Shown: positions 2,651-18,960 of the stretch, in pieces
Numbering within the stretch: the first letter of the stretch is position 1
How the letters are laid out: each line of letters starts with the position of its first letter
Assembly: GCA_021647505.1 (NCBI GenBank)
Contig: JAKIUN010000003.1
Coordinates: 43,759 to 107,758 of the forward strand
Source: Gammaproteobacteria bacterium
GTDB lineage: Bacteria > Pseudomonadota > Gammaproteobacteria > SZUA-152
Length of the DNA stretch: 64,000 nucleotides
Direction of reading: 5' to 3'
The notes under the pieces: model-generated
What the model saw: the letters and a program-made list of their open reading frames with translations, nothing else
What the model was told of the DNA's origin: nothing
The model's database searches: none
Made by a program: the position numbers and the translations under genes

Positions 2651-3196
2651 ATGGCCAGAAAATACGACCGGATCGAGCTGGAACACGCCGAGTTCATCAA
2701 ACGACAGAAGATATTCTTCGTCGCCACCGCAGCGGCCGGGGGGTGCGTCAACCTCTCACCCAAGGGCATGGACAGCCTGCGCGTGCTGGATCCAAACCGC
2801 GTGATCTGGCTCAACGTCACCGGTAGCGGTAACGAGACCGCCGCTCACGTCACCGAAAACCCCCGCATGACCCTGATGTTTTGCGCCTTCGAAGGTAAGC
2901 CGCTGATCCTGCGCCTGTATGGCGAAGCACGTGCCATACACCCCAGCGACTCGGATTGGCAGACATTGCTGGATCACTTCCCACCCCTGCCCGGTGCCCG
3001 GCAGATCTTCGAACTGAACGTGGATCTGGCGCAAAGCTCCTGCGGCATGGCTGTGCCACTGTTCGACTATGTCGAAGATCGTGAGGCCCTCAACGACTGG
3101 GCTCAGCGCAAGGGGCCGGCAGGAATCGGGGAATATTGGCGGGAGAAGAATGTCACCAGTCTCGATGGAATACCGACGGGGATCGATGGCGAGTAG
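2651..3196 (+). CDS. Pyridoxamine 5'-phosphate oxidase family (FMN-binding split barrel) protein
   Basis: RQKIFFVATAAAGGCVNLSPKGMDSLRVLDPNRVIWLNVTGSGNETAAHVTENPRMTLMFCAFEGKPLILRLYGEARAI is typical of the PNPOx-like fold. Confidence 0.85.
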   Translation: MARKYDRIELEHAEFIKRQKIFFVATAAAGGCVNLSPKGMDSLRVLDPNRVIWLNVTGSGNETAAHVTENPRMTLMFCAFEGKPLILRLYGEARAIHPSDSDWQTLLDHFPPLPGARQIFELNVDLAQSSCGMAVPLFDYVEDREALNDWAQRKGPAGIGEYWREKNVTSLDGIPTGIDGE

Positions 3197-3415
3197 TCAG
3201 TGGGTCTGCTAAGAGAGGCAATGGCGAAACAAGTGGTGGCCAAGGGGCTTGTATGGGTGACTTATACTGGCTACCGTGTAATACACGATTATAAATTTAG
3301 GAGGGTTTCGTGCCAGATGGAAAGAGAATTGCACTGCTTAAGGATAATCGTCAATAAATTTATAACAAAGCGCAGAATGGGAAGGGATGATTCACAACCA
3401 AAAATACCTGCGATA

Positions 3416-5695
3416 TCATTCCCTGTCTTGCTCTTTGCCCTGTTTGACACAAGAACGATTATAGATTTCCGCCAGCGAGAGTAATAGTGAAACTTCATCC
3501 ACACTTTCAAGTGCATGGTCTTTTCTAAACACCAGCATAATACCCTTGCGGATCTCCAGATAAAATCCATCATGCTCCACAATGAACTCGATAAGCTCTG
3601 GTGGAATATCCGACAGCGGATCGGCACCCTGTTTTGTATAAAGGCGATATTTTGCAGTAAGTTTGTTACTGCTTGGTAACACTACTTCATCATAATCGAC
3701 CAGATAGCGCTCTAAATAATGCCCTGGAGTGATCACCATATCCGGTATTTGGCTACCCGAATCAGCAGGGCATCGTGAGGTAATGATAGTATGCCAGTGC
3801 TTGGTGTAATAATTCGGTGCCGATGTGTGGCTGTAATCGTACAGGCTTATATGACCACCTAGATATTCACCTGACAGAACATTACTTACTTCCTTGTCTG
3901 CACCACGGTGCAGATAAATGAAGCCTTCTGTATTTAATATGCTCGTCGGTTCAGGCTGGAAATCCAGCTTGTATTGATCAGCCAGACGCTCCATTTGCAC
4001 TTCCCTTTTGCTACGCTGAACCTGCTCTTTGATCAGAGTAGTGTCCTGCATACGGGCTGCCAGTGAGTGTCGTGTAAATGGAATAAAATTTTCCACGCCA
4101 ACCAATTCAAAGGCACGGCCATCGCGCACGCATTCTTCTTCAAATTGATGCAAATACTCCATGGCTGTATGGTCAATAATCCGCCCTGACTCCGTCACAA
4201 TCAAAGTAACACCGACCTTGGATGGTAAGCTGCTGAGCAACTTGTCTAAAGGTAAAAGATTGAAACACACCAGCGAAGACAATGTCATTTCATAATGAGT
4301 GATACCTTCTCTTTCCTGTTTCTTGACCCTTATTACCGGTGTTTTAAACAAACTCCTCAAGTTATCCCAGAGCAGACAACAGCTACGTTTAAAACTCAAG
4401 CGCCCTGTCAACACAAAGCGAAAAGATGGCGCCAACAGATACAACAACATTACTACTTCAGCAGCTACACCGATAAGAATGCCAGAAAGAAGATCCGTGC
4501 CGAGAATGGCAAAAACAGTGATAATGAAGATGACGATCTGGTCACGGCCGATAGCGTAGGTTTTAGTGAAAACCTTATATTCACACAGTTTCCAGCCTAC
4601 ATAGATTAGAATCGCGGCAATAGCCGCCAGTGGAACCATCGCGATAACATCCGTAATAAGAAACAAAAATATCAACAAAAATATTGCATTATAAAAATTT
4701 GCCCACAGTGTCCGTCCGCCAGCATCAATATTTGTTCGACTTTTAATTCCTCCAGGAATGATAGTCAATCCGCCAAAAATACTCGACAGCGAGTTGGAAA
4801 CGCCCATTGCACGCAAAGTTACGTTCGGATCTGATTTGCGCTGGAACGGATCAATTTTATCAACGGCCTTAATCGTCGCTAATGATTCAACGCCATCGAT
4901 CAGTGTCAGGGTAATCACGACGATCAAAATACTCCACCATAGTTCTGGCCGTGAAAATACCTCACCAAAGGCCGGGAAGGTGATCCCGTCCGCCATTATG
5001 CTATCCGGCATTGTGATAAGATATTTTTCGTCAAGACCAAACACAGAGCCCAACAGGATGCCAAATACAGTCACAAATAACGGTGGTGGTACTTTACGCA
5101 TCCAGTCGTACTTCGATTTACTCAGGTAAAAAATAAGAAACAGACTGAGTGCACCAATAACCAGGACGTTCCATTCAACCTGTAATAAGGCCTGAGGAAG
5201 TTTTGCAACAGACGCCAACATGGTTTCAGAGGCGGGTAATATCGCTCCCATCAAGGGAGGAATCTGTTTAATGATAATAATCAAACCGATGGCTGCGAGC
5301 ATCGCCTCAACCACAGTCACAGGTAAAAAAATGGCATACCGACCCGTTTTGAAAAAGGCCAAAACTATCTGCACTAACCCGGTGATACAGATTGCTACCA
5401 AAAGCAGGGGATAACCTTCAGCAAGGTCACCGCCGCCTAACAGCAACATTCCGGCTAAAAGTGCAGGGGCCAAACCTGCAGCTGGCCCACTAATCGTGAC
5501 ATAAGCACCACCGAGAAAAGGAAATATAAGGCCGGCAATAATCGCAGAAATCAATCCGGTAACGGGCGGTGCACCGGAAGCGATAGCAATACCCAGGGAT
5601 AGGGGCAATGAAACGAGCGCGACTTGCATGCCTGCTAACAAGTCGTAACGCCAGTGCTTTAAGCCTTTAATGCCATTCTGTGGGGCTTCAGTCAT
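3416..5695 (-). CDS. SulP family anion transporter with STAS-like region and long C-terminal extension
   Basis: N-terminal SulP core (DLLAGMQVALVSLPLSLGIAIASGAPPVTGLISAIIAGLIFPFLGGAYVTISGPAAGLAPALLAG), STAS-like segment around 455-545 aa, then about 190 aa of soluble extension. Confidence 0.85.
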   Translation of the reverse strand: MTEAPQNGIKGLKHWRYDLLAGMQVALVSLPLSLGIAIASGAPPVTGLISAIIAGLIFPFLGGAYVTISGPAAGLAPALLAGMLLLGGGDLAEGYPLLLVAICITGLVQIVLAFFKTGRYAIFLPVTVVEAMLAAIGLIIIIKQIPPLMGAILPASETMLASVAKLPQALLQVEWNVLVIGALSLFLIFYLSKSKYDWMRKVPPPLFVTVFGILLGSVFGLDEKYLITMPDSIMADGITFPAFGEVFSRPELWWSILIVVITLTLIDGVESLATIKAVDKIDPFQRKSDPNVTLRAMGVSNSLSSIFGGLTIIPGGIKSRTNIDAGGRTLWANFYNAIFLLIFLFLITDVIAMVPLAAIAAILIYVGWKLCEYKVFTKTYAIGRDQIVIFIITVFAILGTDLLSGILIGVAAEVVMLLYLLAPSFRFVLTGRLSFKRSCCLLWDNLRSLFKTPVIRVKKQEREGITHYEMTLSSLVCFNLLPLDKLLSSLPSKVGVTLIVTESGRIIDHTAMEYLHQFEEECVRDGRAFELVGVENFIPFTRHSLAARMQDTTLIKEQVQRSKREVQMERLADQYKLDFQPEPTSILNTEGFIYLHRGADKEVSNVLSGEYLGGHISLYDYSHTSAPNYYTKHWHTIITSRCPADSGSQIPDMVITPGHYLERYLVDYDEVVLPSSNKLTAKYRLYTKQGADPLSDIPPELIEFIVEHDGFYLEIRKGIMLVFRKDHALESVDEVSLLLSLAEIYNRSCVKQGKEQDRE

Positions 5696-6052
5696 AATAT
5701 TTACGCCTCAAAACTTATTTGGTCTTTTATTTAGCCGTATGTGGTGCGTTATACTAAAAATGGGTGCAGAAGGCCATGATTATGCTGTTCCGTCCGCTTG
5801 AGATAACACCACCGTTCTCGCGAGAACGGCTTGCTTGGCTGAGACGATGGAAGCCTGACTTAGCGGCGCCATCAAAGCCTGGGCCTTGCAATACGCCGGG
5901 TCGAGTCTACGCTGGGTGCACAGTCTTAGCGAATAGCAAGCCGCCTGGAGTGCCCTAGAGGATGCCGACTCCATCGTCAGCGGCACCCGTTACGAGCATC
6001 CGCAACGGCAAACTACCTCGCTCTTCCTGAAGGACACCTTTGCGACAGGGGT

Positions 6053-6435
6053 TCAGAGGGTTTGCGCCAGATATTCGCGCAGGAACTCGCCGAAGGGGTT
6101 CGCTCCGGGTCACGTACCTTGCCGCGCTGCACGGCCAGACTGCTGCGGTAGACCTCGCTGGCATGGGTATCATCGAGCAGTTCGCATACGCCGGTCATGT
6201 CATCGAGGATCTCGCCGGCCCATTGCGACAGCTTTATCTTGCTGCCACGGCGGTGCAGGTATAGCTGTGGATCGCGTCCACGGTGGGCGGTAGCCAGTTC
6301 GTTGACGTCCAGTGAGCGCAGTTCGACGTATTTCACCCCGCGCTGTTTGAGGGCGTGGATGGGTTTTTCGGTGGCGCCGGTGATCTGCTTGGGGCGAATG
6401 GTGGCGTTGAGCTGTTCCCAGCGGTTGTTGACGAA
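6053..6435 (-). pseudogene. Partial, internally deleted copy of gshA
   Basis: Compared with gshA (9012..10595): 6089-6309 appears identical to 9241-9461, with internal deletions of about 193, 123 and 33 bp. The tail NPFGEFLREYLAQTL* resembles GshA KPFGDFLREYFAQAL*. Confidence 0.85.
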
Positions 6436-6436
6436 A

Positions 6437-6560
6437 ACGCCGACAGGGGTTGATGGCAAGTAGTCAGTGATTTGCGAAGAAAGAACAATGGCGAAACAGC
6501 TGGTGAGCCAAAGGATTTTCATATGGCCGATTTATACAGATGTCCGTATAAGCCGGTAAA
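6437..6560 (+). repeat. Diverged second copy of PNPOx-family gene 3' end plus its downstream flank
   Basis: ccgacaggggttgatggcaagtagtcagtg...caatggcgaaacagctggtg aligns with ccgacggggatcgatggcgagtagtcagtg...caatggcgaaacaagtggtg near 3173-3240 (about 70% over 66 nt by eye); PTGVDGK* versus PTGIDGE*. Confidence 0.65.
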
Positions 6561-6619
6561 TTACGGATGTTCATTCAATACAGCTATAAGAGCAATAAAA
6601 ATCGAGATTGGAGGAAAAA

Positions 6620-7351
6620 TTGAAACTAAAAAATGCTATCGAAAACATGGGAGAAATTTCAGCAATAGACATTGCGAAAAATATTGCAGAAAATGAAGGT
6701 ATTGATTGGGAGGGTGGCGCAAAATTTATTTTCTCTGTTATCGCGAATGATATTGAAAGAGCCCCAGGAAATATTGGTGGAAAAAATGATACGAAGCAGG
6801 ATGTAATCAAAAAGTGGCTACTTAAATATCAGGGTGGCTTTGATGGAAGAGCTTCGCAGCGTATATCTAACCTGCCAGGAACAGTTGCAGACCCAATAAT
6901 TGAAAAAATAATCGGCGCACGTTTAGATCATCTTACCGATGAAGACTTGAATAAAATAATATTCGCCCATCCTTTGGGAATGTCCGCAGAAAACATCCTT
7001 GGATTGATTCTGGAAGAATATTTATCTAAAAATTTAATAGCAAACGGTTGGCACTGCGCATGGGGAGAGACGGTAAAATCAGTAGATTTTGTAAATGAAA
7101 ATGGAAGTTTGCTACAAATTAAAAACAGAAGCAATTCAGAAAATAGTTCAAGTAGCGCTGTACGTGATGGTACTGAAATCAAAAAGTGGTACAGAATTAA
7201 AGCTGACCGCACTGAATATATGTGGCCACAATTAAATAAAATTTGTGGAACTGATAACTTGTCTGAAGACAAGTTCGTCAATTTTGTGAAAAAAATATTA
7301 AGATCAAACCCAGGTTGTTTAGCTGTTGAGGATGGCAGCCCTTGGAAGTAG
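6620..7351 (+). CDS. Putative type II restriction endonuclease (SinI/AvaII-like, GGWCC-type suspected)
   Basis: Convergent with a C5 methyltransferase. Contains SLLQIKNRSNSENSSSSAVRDGTEIKKWYRIKADRTEYMWPQLN. TTG start at 6620 has ggagg upstream. ORF track starts at 6608. Confidence 0.6.
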   Translation: MKLKNAIENMGEISAIDIAKNIAENEGIDWEGGAKFIFSVIANDIERAPGNIGGKNDTKQDVIKKWLLKYQGGFDGRASQRISNLPGTVADPIIEKIIGARLDHLTDEDLNKIIFAHPLGMSAENILGLILEEYLSKNLIANGWHCAWGETVKSVDFVNENGSLLQIKNRSNSENSSSSAVRDGTEIKKWYRIKADRTEYMWPQLNKICGTDNLSEDKFVNFVKKILRSNPGCLAVEDGSPWK

Positions 7352-7368
7352 TCGACATCAAAAATCAG

Positions 7369-8826
7369 TCAGCCAAACTGAATTTCTTGTTGAGTTAAGT
7401 GATGCTGTGTAGCATTGTTGTACGATTTAAGAAACTGCTCCTCCCATTCATGATTGCTGGTATTTTTATATCTTGAGTAGTTAAATCCAAGAAATTGTTC
7501 AGGTTTTTCATTATTTAGCAGAGACACAATCAGTCTCCCTATAGCAAAGCCTAAGCCAGAAGGTACAGCGTTGCCGGCTTGCTTATATTGTTGAATAAGA
7601 GGGCCAGCTAATATCCAGCTATCTGGAAACTCCTGTATACGTTTGTATTCCTGAATAGATAGCGGCCTGTCTTCTTCTGGGTGGGCTAAATCAGTGGCAG
7701 GCATGGCAGGATGAGTGACTACCGTTGGTGAAGGCTTGTTCCAAGCTAACCTTCTTAGGAAGCCTGTTTTACCACCACCAGCATAAAAAGATTTCCCCAA
7801 AGCTTCTTTTTGTAATTCTTCTGGTAAATTTCTCCAATTTTCACCAGGCTTTAGCATTCTATAATATTTCAGTCGCTTCTCTGGAAAATTTAGGTGTTGA
7901 TGTTCTGTTAAACCTTTAACTGCTTGCTTAAATGTTTTCCATTTTGGCAATCCATACTCTTTTTTCTCAGTGTGAGTTGGTGTCAAATATGGAGGAGTCT
8001 TACCATCTCTCGCACAAACAATTATTACACGCTCTCTTATCTGTGGTGTGCCGAAATTGGCGGAGTTATAGAGATTAAATGAATAGGAATACCCTGATTT
8101 TTTTAATTTTGACAAAATAAAATTCAAAGCCCCTCCTTTCATTTCATCGGCAGTCAGATCAGGGAATTCTGAGCCTCTCTCGTCATGAGGCCTATGATCC
8201 ATCGGGCAAGACAGTAAGCCTCTAACATTTTCAACTATGATATAGTTGGGATTTAATTCAATAGCTAAGTCAATGTATTTTAGAAATACATTACCCCTAT
8301 CATCATTGAATGCCTTGCGTTTCCCTGCTGTGCTAAAAGCCTGACAAGGTGGCCCCCCGATAATAAGGTCAATTTCATCTGCCTCGGTAAGACCTGAAGC
8401 ATCCAAAATATCTTGCTTGGAATAATCATTAATATCACTTAAAAGCGCCATATTAGGTTTATTAAGTGCAATTGTTTGACGGCAATACTTATCAATTTCA
8501 CATGCAAGTCGAACATCAAACCCCGCTTTCTCAATACCAATATCTAATCCCATTGCGCCTGAGAAGAAGCTGAGAGCTATTGGTTTGTTATTCGCATCTT
8601 TTTGCACTGCATAAGCCGCGTGATCTTCCACAATCATATGGGATGTTTGTAATCCATAGCGTTTTACCGATTCTGATTCCAGCATCCAAGAACGACCAAA
8701 TCTTGTGGCAGATAGAATCCCTGTACGGCATAATGTGCGAATTCGCTGCTCACTAATATTTAATAGATAAGCGGCTTCTTTGGTTGTGATGTGGGTACTC
8801 ATAAGCGCAGCCTTTTGCGAAACCAA
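7369..8826 (-). CDS. DNA (cytosine-5)-methyltransferase with N-terminal excisionase-type HTH
   Basis: [49 protein letters not shown], and [11 protein letters not shown] motifs of C5 MTases. N-terminal [37 protein letters not shown] is an excisionase/MerR-like HTH. Start may be 8802 (MSTHITT). Confidence 0.9.
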
Positions 8827-8838
8827 TAGAAGGTACCT

Positions 8839-8866
8839 ATTTTACTGACGTCATATTGAGTGTCAA
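8839..8866 (-). promoter_or_regulatory. Putative sigma70 promoter of the methyltransferase gene with TGACGTCA palindrome in the spacer
   Basis: Reverse strand: TTGACA-N16-TAAAAT. Perfect palindrome TGACGTCA at 8846-8853 lies between the -35 and -10. Confidence 0.5.
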
Positions 8867-9011
8867 TGCAAAAAACGCTCTATCAATCAATAGCATATAC
8901 TCAGACTTCTATACGCTACAGCCACATCACTTTTAGCTGTCGGTGATGCTAGTGGTCTGTCAACCCTGTCGGGGTTCAGCGTTCCTGGATCTCCACCGGC
9001 ACCTTGTTTGT

Positions 9012-10595
9012 TCACAGGGCCTGCGCGAAATATTCGCGCAAAAAATCCCCGAAAGGCTTGTTATCGGCGTCTTCGATGGCCTGTTGCTGCTGGCGTGATT
9101 GCTCGGCCATGTGAATGAATTTGGTACGACGTTCTTCGCTCAGGCTGAGGCTGTAAAAATGGTCACGATGCTGCTGGGACATGCGCATGCCGAAGTGGAA
9201 GAAGCCTTCGCTGTTAGCACGCATTTCCGCCAGCATGCGCGCCGAAGGGGTTCGCTCCGGGTCACGTACCTTGCCGCGCTGCACGGCCAGACTGCTGCGG
9301 TAGACCTCGCTGGCATGGGTATCATCGAGCAGTTCGCATACGCCGGTCATGTCATCGAGGATCTCGCCGGCCCATTGCGACAGCTTTATCTTGCTGCCAC
9401 GGCGGTGCAGGTATAGCTGTGGATCGCGTCCACGGTGGGCGGTAGCCAGTTCGTTGACGTCGATTTCGCGGCGTTCCTGCGCGTCGATGGGCGGGCTGTC
9501 GAGCAGCAGGCAGTAGACCAGAAAGGCTTCGAGAAAGTGCATTTGTGGCAGGCTGATACCCAGCGGATCGAAGGCGTTAACGTCCAGTGAGCGCAGTTCG
9601 ACGTATTTCACCCCGTGCTGTTTGAGGGCGTGGATGGGTTTTTCGGTGGCGCCGGTGATTTGCTTGGGGCGGATGGTGGAGTAGTACTCGTTTTCGATCT
9701 GCAGGATGTTGGCGTTGAGCTGTTCCCAGCGGCCGTTGACGAATGTACCGATGCGCTCGTAGGCGGCGCAGGGGGTGCTGATGGCGCAGTTGAGGGTGTC
9801 GACATAGCTGTCGAGGTCGTCGTAACAGGCCTTGATGCCGATTTCGGCCTCCTGATTGTTCTGGTAACCGATGTCGCCCATACGCAGGGAGGTGGCGTAG
9901 GGCTGGTAGGCGGTATGTTGGTCGAATTCCTTCAGCTGGGTGGGTTGGCCGTTGAGGAAGGATTTGCACACGGCCGGTGAGGCGCCGAACAGGTAGGGCA
10001 CCAGCCAGCCAAAGCGTTGCAGGTTGCGGATCAGGCCGAAATAATGATCGGAGATGAAGTCTTGCAGTCGTCGCTGGTCGTTTTCGAGCTGCTGGTAGGC
10101 GGGCCAGAAGGCCTCCGGCAGGGAATAGTTGAAATGCACCCCGGCGATGATTTGCATCAGGCGGCCGTAACGATGGCCAAGGCCACGCCGGTAGACAGTC
10201 TTCATCTGGCCGATGTTGGAGTCGCCATAGCGGGCAATGGGGATACTGCCCTCTCCGGCGACCACACAAGGCATGCTGGTGGCCCATAGCAGCTCGTCGT
10301 TTTCCAGCTGGCCATAGACGAAGCTCTGTACGTCGCGCAGGGCAGCCAGTACTTCGCCAGTGCCCGCGAGTGGAGGAGTGATGAATTCGGTCAGGGCCTC
10401 GGAGTAATCGGTGGTGATCAGCGGGTGGGTGAGCGGCGAGCCCAGCGCAGCGGGGTGCGGCGTTTGCGCGAGCTTGCCGTCCGGGCTGACGCGCAAACTC
10501 TCTTTCTCCAGGCCGATGTGCGCACCTGTGAGCAGGCCGCGCTGGGCACTGCTGGTGAGTTGGTTGAGACGCCGCCGGAGCTTTTGTTCTACCAT
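9012..10595 (-). CDS. gshA: Glutamate-cysteine ligase
   Basis: GLEKESLRVSPDGKLAQTPHPAALGSPLTHPLITTDYSEALTEFITPP, and PKQITGATEKPIHALKQHGVKYVELRSLDVNAFDP are characteristic of proteobacterial GshA. Confidence 0.95.
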   Translation of the reverse strand: MVEQKLRRRLNQLTSSAQRGLLTGAHIGLEKESLRVSPDGKLAQTPHPAALGSPLTHPLITTDYSEALTEFITPPLAGTGEVLAALRDVQSFVYGQLENDELLWATSMPCVVAGEGSIPIARYGDSNIGQMKTVYRRGLGHRYGRLMQIIAGVHFNYSLPEAFWPAYQQLENDQRRLQDFISDHYFGLIRNLQRFGWLVPYLFGASPAVCKSFLNGQPTQLKEFDQHTAYQPYATSLRMGDIGYQNNQEAEIGIKACYDDLDSYVDTLNCAISTPCAAYERIGTFVNGRWEQLNANILQIENEYYSTIRPKQITGATEKPIHALKQHGVKYVELRSLDVNAFDPLGISLPQMHFLEAFLVYCLLLDSPPIDAQERREIDVNELATAHRGRDPQLYLHRRGSKIKLSQWAGEILDDMTGVCELLDDTHASEVYRSSLAVQRGKVRDPERTPSARMLAEMRANSEGFFHFGMRMSQQHRDHFYSLSLSEERRTKFIHMAEQSRQQQQAIEDADNKPFGDFLREYFAQAL

Positions 10596-10796
10596 GGGAA
10601 CCTTTGTTTTTCGGCGGTTTCGCCAAGAAAAAACGCAGAGTCTACCGCAAGCCGAATGTTACAGGCAGTCGGTGGCTGGGAAATGCACATATTGCTTGCA
10701 TGTGATATCTGTTTACGGCATTTTCACGCTGTGCGCATGGGGGTATAGTCCGCGCTTGAATCATCGATTTACGAACACAGCAAGGAGCAATACGGT

Positions 10797-11734: not shown

Positions 11735-12847
11735 ATGGAGCTAGTTGTAACAAGTCCGACAGAACACAGCCAGCATTTGCTGGTAGTGGATGATATCGAG
11801 AGCAACCGTGATCTCATGCGCTTGCAATTGCAGCGTTATGGTTATCGGATATCGCTGGCGGAAGACGGCGAAGAGGCGCTGGCGATGATCGCGCGAGAGC
11901 GTTTTGACCTGGTGTTGCTCGATATCCGCATGCCCGGCATGGACGGTATCGAGGTATTGCAGCAGATTCGTTGCAGTTATTCTCAACTTTCCCTGCCCGT
12001 CATCATGGTGACGGCCGAGGATCAGGAACAGCGTTTGATCGAGGCGTTACGGATTGGCGCCAACGATTATCTCGCCAAGCCCCTGCGGCTGCCAGTGACC
12101 CTGGCGCGCATCGAGGCCCAGCTCAGTGTTGGCCGGCTCGCCACGATCCAGGAAGACGTGGTGCAATTCACCAGCCACGACCTGAAAAAACCGCTGTTGG
12201 TGATGATGGACATTGCCGAAACCATGCAAGAGGAAGTGCAACAGTCGGGTGTCATGCCGGCAGACAGCGGCGAGCTGCTGGATCTACTGATTCGCACCGG
12301 GCAGAATATGCAACAGGTGATAAGCGGTTTCCTCGACCAGGAAGGGCTGGGCTATGGCCGTGAAGAGCCTCTGCGGCGAGTGCTCGACCTCAATCAGACG
12401 ATGCAGAAGTCCCTACAGGCAAATCTAGACTATGCCACCCGCAAGGGCGTCGTGCTGAGTAGTGAATTTGCCGAACAACTGCCATCGGTACAGGCCAATG
12501 AATTCCGTCTGTGCCAAATCATGGACAATCTTATTGGCAACGCGCTGAAATTTTCCCCACGGGAGACGCACACCGTGGTGCGCACCCGCGCAGAGGATGG
12601 ACAGGTAGTGGTTGAAATTGAAGACAGCGGCCCAGGGCTCGACAAGGACGATTTCAGCAAGCTGTTCACCAAGCATGCCCGACTCAGCAACCGGCCCACA
12701 GGCAATGAAAGCAGCAGCGGACTCGGCCTGGCTATGTGCAAGCAGCTTATTATCCTCGATAAGGGCACGATTGGTGCGCGTAACAACCCTGAAAGCGGTG
12801 CAACTTTCTGGATTCGGCTGCCAGTCAGTGTATTGAACGAGTGCTAG
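11735..12847 (+). CDS. REC-HisKA-HATPase hybrid response regulator/histidine kinase
   Basis: Receiver LLVVDDIESNRDLMRLQLQRYGY...DLVLLDIRMPGMDGIEVL; H-box-like FTSHDLKKPLLV; N box NLIGNALKFSPR; G boxes EDSGPGL and SSGLGLAMCKQL. Confidence 0.85.
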   Translation: MELVVTSPTEHSQHLLVVDDIESNRDLMRLQLQRYGYRISLAEDGEEALAMIARERFDLVLLDIRMPGMDGIEVLQQIRCSYSQLSLPVIMVTAEDQEQRLIEALRIGANDYLAKPLRLPVTLARIEAQLSVGRLATIQEDVVQFTSHDLKKPLLVMMDIAETMQEEVQQSGVMPADSGELLDLLIRTGQNMQQVISGFLDQEGLGYGREEPLRRVLDLNQTMQKSLQANLDYATRKGVVLSSEFAEQLPSVQANEFRLCQIMDNLIGNALKFSPRETHTVVRTRAEDGQVVVEIEDSGPGLDKDDFSKLFTKHARLSNRPTGNESSSGLGLAMCKQLIILDKGTIGARNNPESGATFWIRLPVSVLNEC

Positions 12848-17262: not shown

Positions 17263-18654
17263 TTATAAAGATTCAAGGTTTTGTTTGAGATTAGCAGTTG
17301 GTGTAAATGAAAATGCCTTCCCAATTTTTGTTTTATTTAGAACCCCCATTTTAACTAACTTAAGCAAATCAGTTCTGGCAGTATCATAAGTTACATTATG
17401 CGCACCTCTATGACTTTCAACATAAAATACTGCATCAGGATTTTTTAAGGCTCTATTTATTAGTGCAATTTGCCGATAATTAAGTAATTTATTTAAGCGA
17501 GGAGACTTTCTTACTATATGTTCAACAGTTTTTATTTCTTTAGATTTATTCTCTAAATAAATTAGTAAGTCTTTTGTTGCTTGGTTAATGACGTTTAATT
17601 GATGAACAATAAAGTAGGTTACATCATTATCATCTGTTTCTGTATGTAGATAGGCTCGTGTATATTTGGCGGGGGCAGACTTTAGTATTTTAGAAATAGA
17701 AATAAATTCCATGGTCCAGTACCCTTGTTTTAGCATAGACCAATAAAATAATGCCCGTGCTGTTCTACCGTTACCATCTTCAAATGGATGGTCATATGCA
17801 AGTAGGAAATGCAATATTATTGCACGAATAACAGGGTGTAAAAATTCTGTGTGATGGGTAGCATTCGCAAAGTTACAAATATTTTCTATTCTGTTTTGTA
17901 GTTCTTTTGCTTTTGGGGGGATGTGAATTATAGTTGCATCACGGTCATCACCCACATATATATCATCTGATACGCGCAGCCTGCCTACTGTGTCTGGATC
18001 GTCCATTGTGTTATTGCTTAGAATTCTATGTAATTCATATATAAGTTCAGGCGTAAGTGACTCATTGGATATGTCCTTTATATATTCCATTGCATGATAA
18101 TTATTAAGGATCATTGTTTCAGACTTATCACGTGGCTTACATTTTTGCCTAAGCATTTCTTTGGCTACTTTTCTAGTTGTTGCTGCACCTTCAAGCTGAC
18201 TTGATGTTATTGACTCTTCAATTAATGAATTTATAAGATAAGTATCTCGTGTATTTGGGTTGGCTATTTGTTCCGTTGTTTTTAACTCTCCACCCCCATG
18301 TACATCTATTTCATGTAATAACCGACGTACTGTATCAGGCTCGCCAAAAACGAAAGAATTACCATCTTTATCTGAATGTGGAATATTTTTGTAAAGTGCT
18401 TTACGTGCAATTTTTATAGCTAACCACCATTCTTCAGGATTTGACATTGCTGAAGGGAGTTTTAAGTGCCTTAATTTGTCCCAGTGGTAGTACTTCCCTT
18501 TGGGGTCAGGTTTTATACCAGATGAGAATATTTCGCCTAGTTTCTCAGGGGTGTGTTTGATTATATAGTCAATCGAGCTTTGAAAGCTGGGCGGGGAAGC
18601 TGGGATTTTCACACTTATTACCAATAAATTATTTATTGGTAATAAGTGTAGCAT
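17263..18654 (-). CDS. Fic family protein with internal inhibitory helix motif and C-terminal winged-HTH-like region
   Basis: Fic core HPFEDGNGRTAR; inhibitory motif SSQLEG upstream (class II); C-terminal TYDTARTDLLKLVKMGVLNKTKIGKAFSFTP. GTG at 18612 (VKIPASPPSF) is a plausible alternative start. Confidence 0.9.
   Translation of the reverse strand: MLHLLPINNLLVISVKIPASPPSFQSSIDYIIKHTPEKLGEIFSSGIKPDPKGKYYHWDKLRHLKLPSAMSNPEEWWLAIKIARKALYKNIPHSDKDGNSFVFGEPDTVRRLLHEIDVHGGGELKTTEQIANPNTRDTYLINSLIEESITSSQLEGAATTRKVAKEMLRQKCKPRDKSETMILNNYHAMEYIKDISNESLTPELIYELHRILSNNTMDDPDTVGRLRVSDDIYVGDDRDATIIHIPPKAKELQNRIENICNFANATHHTEFLHPVIRAIILHFLLAYDHPFEDGNGRTARALFYWSMLKQGYWTMEFISISKILKSAPAKYTRAYLHTETDDNDVTYFIVHQLNVINQATKDLLIYLENKSKEIKTVEHIVRKSPRLNKLLNYRQIALINRALKNPDAVFYVESHRGAHNVTYDTARTDLLKLVKMGVLNKTKIGKAFSFTPTANLKQNLESL
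18611..18649. promoter_or_regulatory. 18-bp-arm perfect palindrome at fic 5' end
   Basis: ACACTTATTACCAATAAA-TTA-TTTATTGGTAATAAGTGT. Confidence 0.75.
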
Positions 18655-18751: not shown

Positions 18752-18960
18752 GTTGTCAAGTCTTTATCTTGCTGATTTATATGATGTTATTAATTTATGG
18801 TAAATAATCTAACAGTTGTATTGAACTGACGTCCGCAATCTACCTACTTATGCGGACGCCGGTATAAGTCCGCAGGCACTGTTTTCTTATCGCCAGGTAC
18901 CCCCATACTAATCAGGATATTTCCCGGAAACAAGGCAACAGCATGTCAGGCACACCTACC

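Follow-up and report, generated by a model that had tools for sequence, protein, structure and literature searches.

Probable insertion of a Type II restriction-modification block with a long duplication of gshA in a gammaproteobacterium

A scrap of gshA lying beside a Type II restriction-modification (R-M) system is probably what remains of the native gshA 3' part after the R-M block inserted with a long target duplication, the left copy then decaying. Sequence comparison marks the R-M block as the foreign DNA, together with the final ~50 bp of the intact gshA, whereas the scrap is native. The locus lies in a 64,000-bp stretch of DNA (the window) from a 3.74-Mb genome in 117 contigs, which was compared with six genomes of the same genus, metagenome-assembled gammaproteobacteria. 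The entry of transposase-free R-M genes into chromosomes is only partly understood. Here the sequence of steps is legible, since relatives preserve the site without the insert and the locus itself still has its two borders and a decaying duplicate (Table 1). It is a real scar of a known type, and it stands out for unusually readable borders, which give clues to the course of the insertion. Besides the scar, the analysis brought out another long-duplication insert, at this slot in a relative, and a genome from which the predicted site of the enzyme has already been largely cleared.

Table 1. Features of the gshA locus, in window coordinates
Feature	Position	Strand	Evidence
PNPOx-family gene, resident copy, C-terminus GIPTGIDGE-stop	2651..3196	+	Pfam PNPOx_N 2.3e-13; 88% DNA identity to L031
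SulP-type transporter gene, resident	3416..5695	-	Pfam Sulfate_transp; 92-93% identity to L025/L031
Native gshA 3' flank and native last codons (GEFLREYLAQTL-stop)	5724..6088		Contiguous with intact gshA in L025 and L031; tail 29/30 nt with L025
169-codon chimeric ORF	6013..6522	-	Pfam Glu_cys_ligase, partial
Decayed left gshA copy	6088..6435	-	Deletions of 193, 123, and 33 bp; 222-bp block identical to intact copy
Left end of block: diverged PNPOx 3' end in frame (TPTGVDGK-stop) and start of its flank	6436..6480	+	77% to 3173-3267; translation
Integron attI-like relic	6481..6591	+	Same repeat directly upstream of decayed integron-integrase gene in G003 (L063)
Type II restriction endonuclease, SinI/AvaII family	6620..7351	+	RE_SinI 3.9e-37; AvaII 6g3b 2.4e-25; PADLOC REase_II
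C5-cytosine methyltransferase with N-terminal HTH domain	7369..8826	-	DNA_methylase 8.3e-59; HTH_17 1.8e-07; dcm family; PADLOC MTase_II
Right part of block	8827..9011		Short dispersed repeats; no match in relatives' gshA loci (8830-9011 searched)
Diverged (donor-type) tail of intact gshA, last ~49 bp, GDFLREYFAQAL-stop	9012..9060	-	81.6% to L025
Intact gshA (527 aa in all)	9061..10595	-	Pfam Glu_cys_ligase 1.3e-163; upstream synteny with relatives

BLASTN of positions 5700-6620 against the window resolves the scrap into three gshA segments. These are 6088-6309, matching 9240-9461 over 222 bp at 100% identity; 6300-6407, matching 9575-9682 at 95.4%; and 6402-6435, matching 9710-9743 at 94%. 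The gshA tail at 9010-9059 also matches 6051-6100 (78%), and the PNPOx end at 3173-3267 matches 6440-6537 (77%, E 8e-12). A separate repeat search of the window recovered the same repeat families. The left copy is collinear with the intact gene (9012-10595, minus strand) at four offsets of 2959, 3152, 3275, and 3308, and therefore lacks 193, 123, and 33 bp. All three deletions fall between short direct repeats of 7-9 bp. The breakpoints of the 123-bp deletion have gtt(g/a)acgtc in common and those of the 33-bp deletion atg(g/t)tgg, while the 193-bp deletion has its joint on gccgaaggg, found both on the block side and in the native tail of the relative L025. Joints at short direct repeats are commonplace in decay, via slippage or annealing. 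At about 6436 the scrap passes into the diverged copy of the PNPOx gene end.

Much of this architecture had been read from the letters in an earlier note, and the alignments bear it out: the gshA-identical block (given there as 221 bp, 6089-6309, one base short), the three deletions, the short repeat shared by the ends of the 123-bp deletion, the joint to a diverged PNPOx 3' end, and the uneven identity, with a 100% block beside diverged tracts. The left and intact copies differ at 0/222 positions in the identical block versus 7/128 directly upstream (Fisher p = 0.0008). A conversion tract is probably the best account of 222 identical bp between otherwise diverged copies.

Comparison with relatives separates the native from the foreign. 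In two close relatives, HyVt-441 (L025) and S140 (L031), sulP, a spacer equivalent to window 5724-6088, and an intact gshA form one unbroken stretch; the gshA locus of neither relative contains R-M genes. Over the last 30 coding nucleotides, the left copy agrees with L025 at 29/30 positions and with L031 at 27/30; for the intact copy the counts are 24/30 and 21/30. The 3' flank of the left copy is 88% identical to both relatives, and window 5724-6100 is 86% identical to L025. The contiguous R-M-free site and the native tail and flank together mean that the scrap and its flank are the original gshA 3' end. The earlier note had proposed a foreign or old fragment, partly overwritten by conversion. 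The mismatch distribution supports an old fragment with an overwritten part, whereas the native tail and flank speak against a foreign one. That note had also named relatives with an intact second gshA and no R-M genes as a finding that would count against it; the relatives have one intact gshA here.

The right border is marked by a drop in identity. Across its last 49 bp the intact gshA is 81.6% identical to L025, but over the next 180 bp the value is 95.6% (Fisher p = 0.003). This drop puts the right-hand edge of the foreign DNA near 9060, so that the foreign stretch spans about 6436 to about 9060. Homology to L025 is unbroken over window 9010-10693. On the left, translation shows that the block ends in a peptide, TPTGVDGK, corresponding to the resident PNPOx C-terminus IPTGIDGE. 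The two borders, a PNPOx C-terminus in frame on the left and a gshA C-terminus on the right, thus correspond to the ends of the two genes that enclose the slot in G003 and in S140. In G003, ~1.7 kb with one other gene separates PNPOx and gshA. In S140 the order is PNPOx-insert-sulP-gshA, with sulP and the insert between the bounding genes.

The repeat could in principle have misled the assembler. An exact 222-bp repeat is probably longer than common assembler word lengths, and this short-read genome is in many contigs. The other path through the repeat, however, would leave no intact gshA, whereas an intact 527-aa gene is present. The left copy is also set apart by its native flank, by substitutions not shared with the intact copy, and by three deletions found in it alone. 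We therefore regard an assembly artefact as very improbable. Rearrangement within this genome is another candidate: the PNPOx-gshA region would have been duplicated in tandem and then pruned by deletions, and the R-M genes would have come in separately. The order gshA scrap, PNPOx end, R-M, gshA does fit a collapsed tandem duplication. The PNPOx end (77%) and the right gshA tail (about 80%), however, are too diverged for recent duplicates when the gshA middle is 100% identical, and an outside source for the R-M genes would still be required. We consider this account unlikely.

A third account invokes an integron. In this scenario an attI site behind PNPOx took up the R-M pair as a cassette, and a later rearrangement duplicated gshA. 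The attI-like relic at 6481-6591 speaks for it, as does the occurrence of integron integrases above the cut-off in 6/7 genomes of the genus. In G003 (L063) the same repeat directly precedes a decayed integron integrase (MDAEKERQFW...), and integrase stubs adjoin it in L038 and L062. Against capture, no RYYYAAC...GTTRRRY attC pair within 50-150 bp was found anywhere in the window, and the core GTTRRRY is not intact beside the R-M genes. Capture alone also neither duplicates gshA nor brings the gshA and PNPOx ends. We find this route rather unlikely.

Decayed integron integrases and attI relics are scattered through the genus (L063, L059, L062). The repeat of 6481-6591 recurs behind mutY at window 18808-18873, followed at 17263-18654 by a Fic-family gene (PADLOC SoFic). 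Because G004 and other relatives also have this relic, the region downstream of mutY may be a former integron slot. In contig C144 of G003, an attI relic directly precedes a ParA-like gene.

Insertion of the R-M block with a long duplication, the reading we favor, can be laid out in steps. The source of the DNA would be a donor chromosome carrying PNPOx-R-M-gshA in the same slot. A clean exchange with such a chromosome would lose sulP, yet the block was added, so joints are needed both in the gshA tail and inside gshA. One end of the donor DNA would have entered by homologous recombination in the gshA tail. The other end would have entered by an illegitimate joint inside a second gshA copy, around 9743, for example on the sister chromosome. 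In this way sulP would be kept, and a gshA stretch of ~680 bp or more (about 9061-9743) would be duplicated. The segment 9061-9743 is represented on both sides of the insert, with deletions in the left copy. Being redundant, the left copy would then have decayed, with the conversion tract preserving 222 identical bp. No genome with the donor order PNPOx-R-M-gshA was found. With just ~49 bp of foreign gshA tail and ~30 coding bases of PNPOx to compare, the relatedness of the donor is weakly constrained. ComEC is present in all genomes of the genus; DNA uptake is thus possible there, but the gene is too widespread to count as evidence.

The repeat also has a computed consequence. If the 222-bp repeats recombined with each other, a 3152-bp circle would be excised and the remaining gshA would encode 476 residues, of which 452 are native and 24 unrelated. 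Truncation of gshA upon excision may help hold the R-M block in place. More generally, and only tentatively, the "long target duplication" around R-M genes could arise when alleles of one accessory slot recombine by homology on one side only and the incoming DNA is added, the repeat then locking in the R-M genes because excision truncates gshA.

Similar structures occur in relatives. S140 has a second, independent case in the same slot, where an insert of ~1.8 kb between sulP and PNPOx has on either side a ~200-bp stretch from the 3' end of sulP, the two being ~90% alike. The repeats lie at L031:4263-4500 and 6409-6631, and the DNA between them has small ORFs and 53-bp palindromic repeats. In G003, a 164-bp direct repeat (92%; L114:8552-8714 and 12008-12171) surrounds ~3.3 kb with a long coiled-coil-like ORF, possibly another insertion with a long duplication.

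The scrap and the block together create the 169-codon chimeric ORF. The earlier note was right that the frame exists. Its match to Pfam Glu_cys_ligase covers only residues 38-76. Among 40 genomes searched, no other one has the gshA-PNPOx joint, and the ORF is not kept in relatives. The signal-like N-terminus pointed out in that note is the antisense of PNPOx-end and attI-like sequence and gives no reason to infer a new gene; most likely the ORF arose by accident.

The R-M genes are convergent. The endonuclease ORF opens at 6608, and its likely start is a TTG at 6620, after GGAGG at 6610-6614. It scores 128 bits against Pfam RE_SinI (cut-off 22), which places it in that family. The N-terminal domain of the methyltransferase is of the HTH_17/excisionase type. 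Such an HTH domain might control R-M gene expression, as in some other R-M systems. From these matches the pair is predicted to be an ordinary GGWCC-type system; AvaII cleaves G^GWCC (PMC7337904). The endonuclease was not detected in 23 other genomes of the order or in 368 other genomes sampled from the class. A donor of the pair was sought in the order (24 genomes), the class (369 genomes), and plasmids, and none of these held a close one; on plasmids, the best endonuclease match was 41% and methyltransferase matches were below 60%.

GGWCC is depleted in the window, with 9 sites observed versus 72 expected (~8-fold), the lowest ratio among 32 degenerate palindromes tested. Beyond the window, observed/expected ratios come from sampled contigs (L097-L103). 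The ratio is 0.17 in other contigs of the source genome, which is overall 6- to 8-fold depleted. It is 0.09 in G002 (11-fold), a genome in which this R-M system was not detected. G003 (0.29) and G001 (0.45) are intermediate, and G004-G006 are only mildly low (0.65-0.72). Depletion in G002, where the system was not detected, suggests that restriction at GGWCC probably has a longer history in the lineage than the insertion, or came and went. The clade's history with GGWCC specificity probably predates this single insertion. A search of the genus for other C5 methyltransferases that might account for the depletion found only 30-39% relatives.

Several known systems bear comparison. The attI-like repeat resembles an integron attI in lying, elsewhere in the genus, just upstream of a decayed integron-integrase gene; unlike an attI, it is here only a relic, with neither integrase nor attC. 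The R-M pair resembles the AvaII/SinI (GGWCC) systems in an endonuclease that matches RE_SinI and the AvaII structure and in an adjoining C5 methyltransferase. The methyltransferase here has an N-terminal HTH domain, which the best PADLOC MTase_II model also covers, and the specificity is predicted. Homology-facilitated illegitimate recombination during transformation pairs a homologous joint with an illegitimate one, which would fit both borders; unlike that process, the event here would have been additive, with the target duplicated and not deleted. The closest setting is that of R-M genes inserted with long, variable target duplications, described in comparative work on Helicobacter and in subsequent studies (Nobusato et al. 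2000, as recounted in PMC3031569 and PMC1643837). Inserts with such duplications frequently carry R-M genes. Such direct repeats permit tandem amplification (PMC3031569). As in these insertions, the Type II pair at the present locus lies between long direct repeats from a resident gene, and relatives are single-copy and R-M-free. It differs in that one repeat copy has decayed, and in that the ends of the block are diverged copies of the genes bounding the slot, which suggests one-sided homologous recombination with a donor allele.
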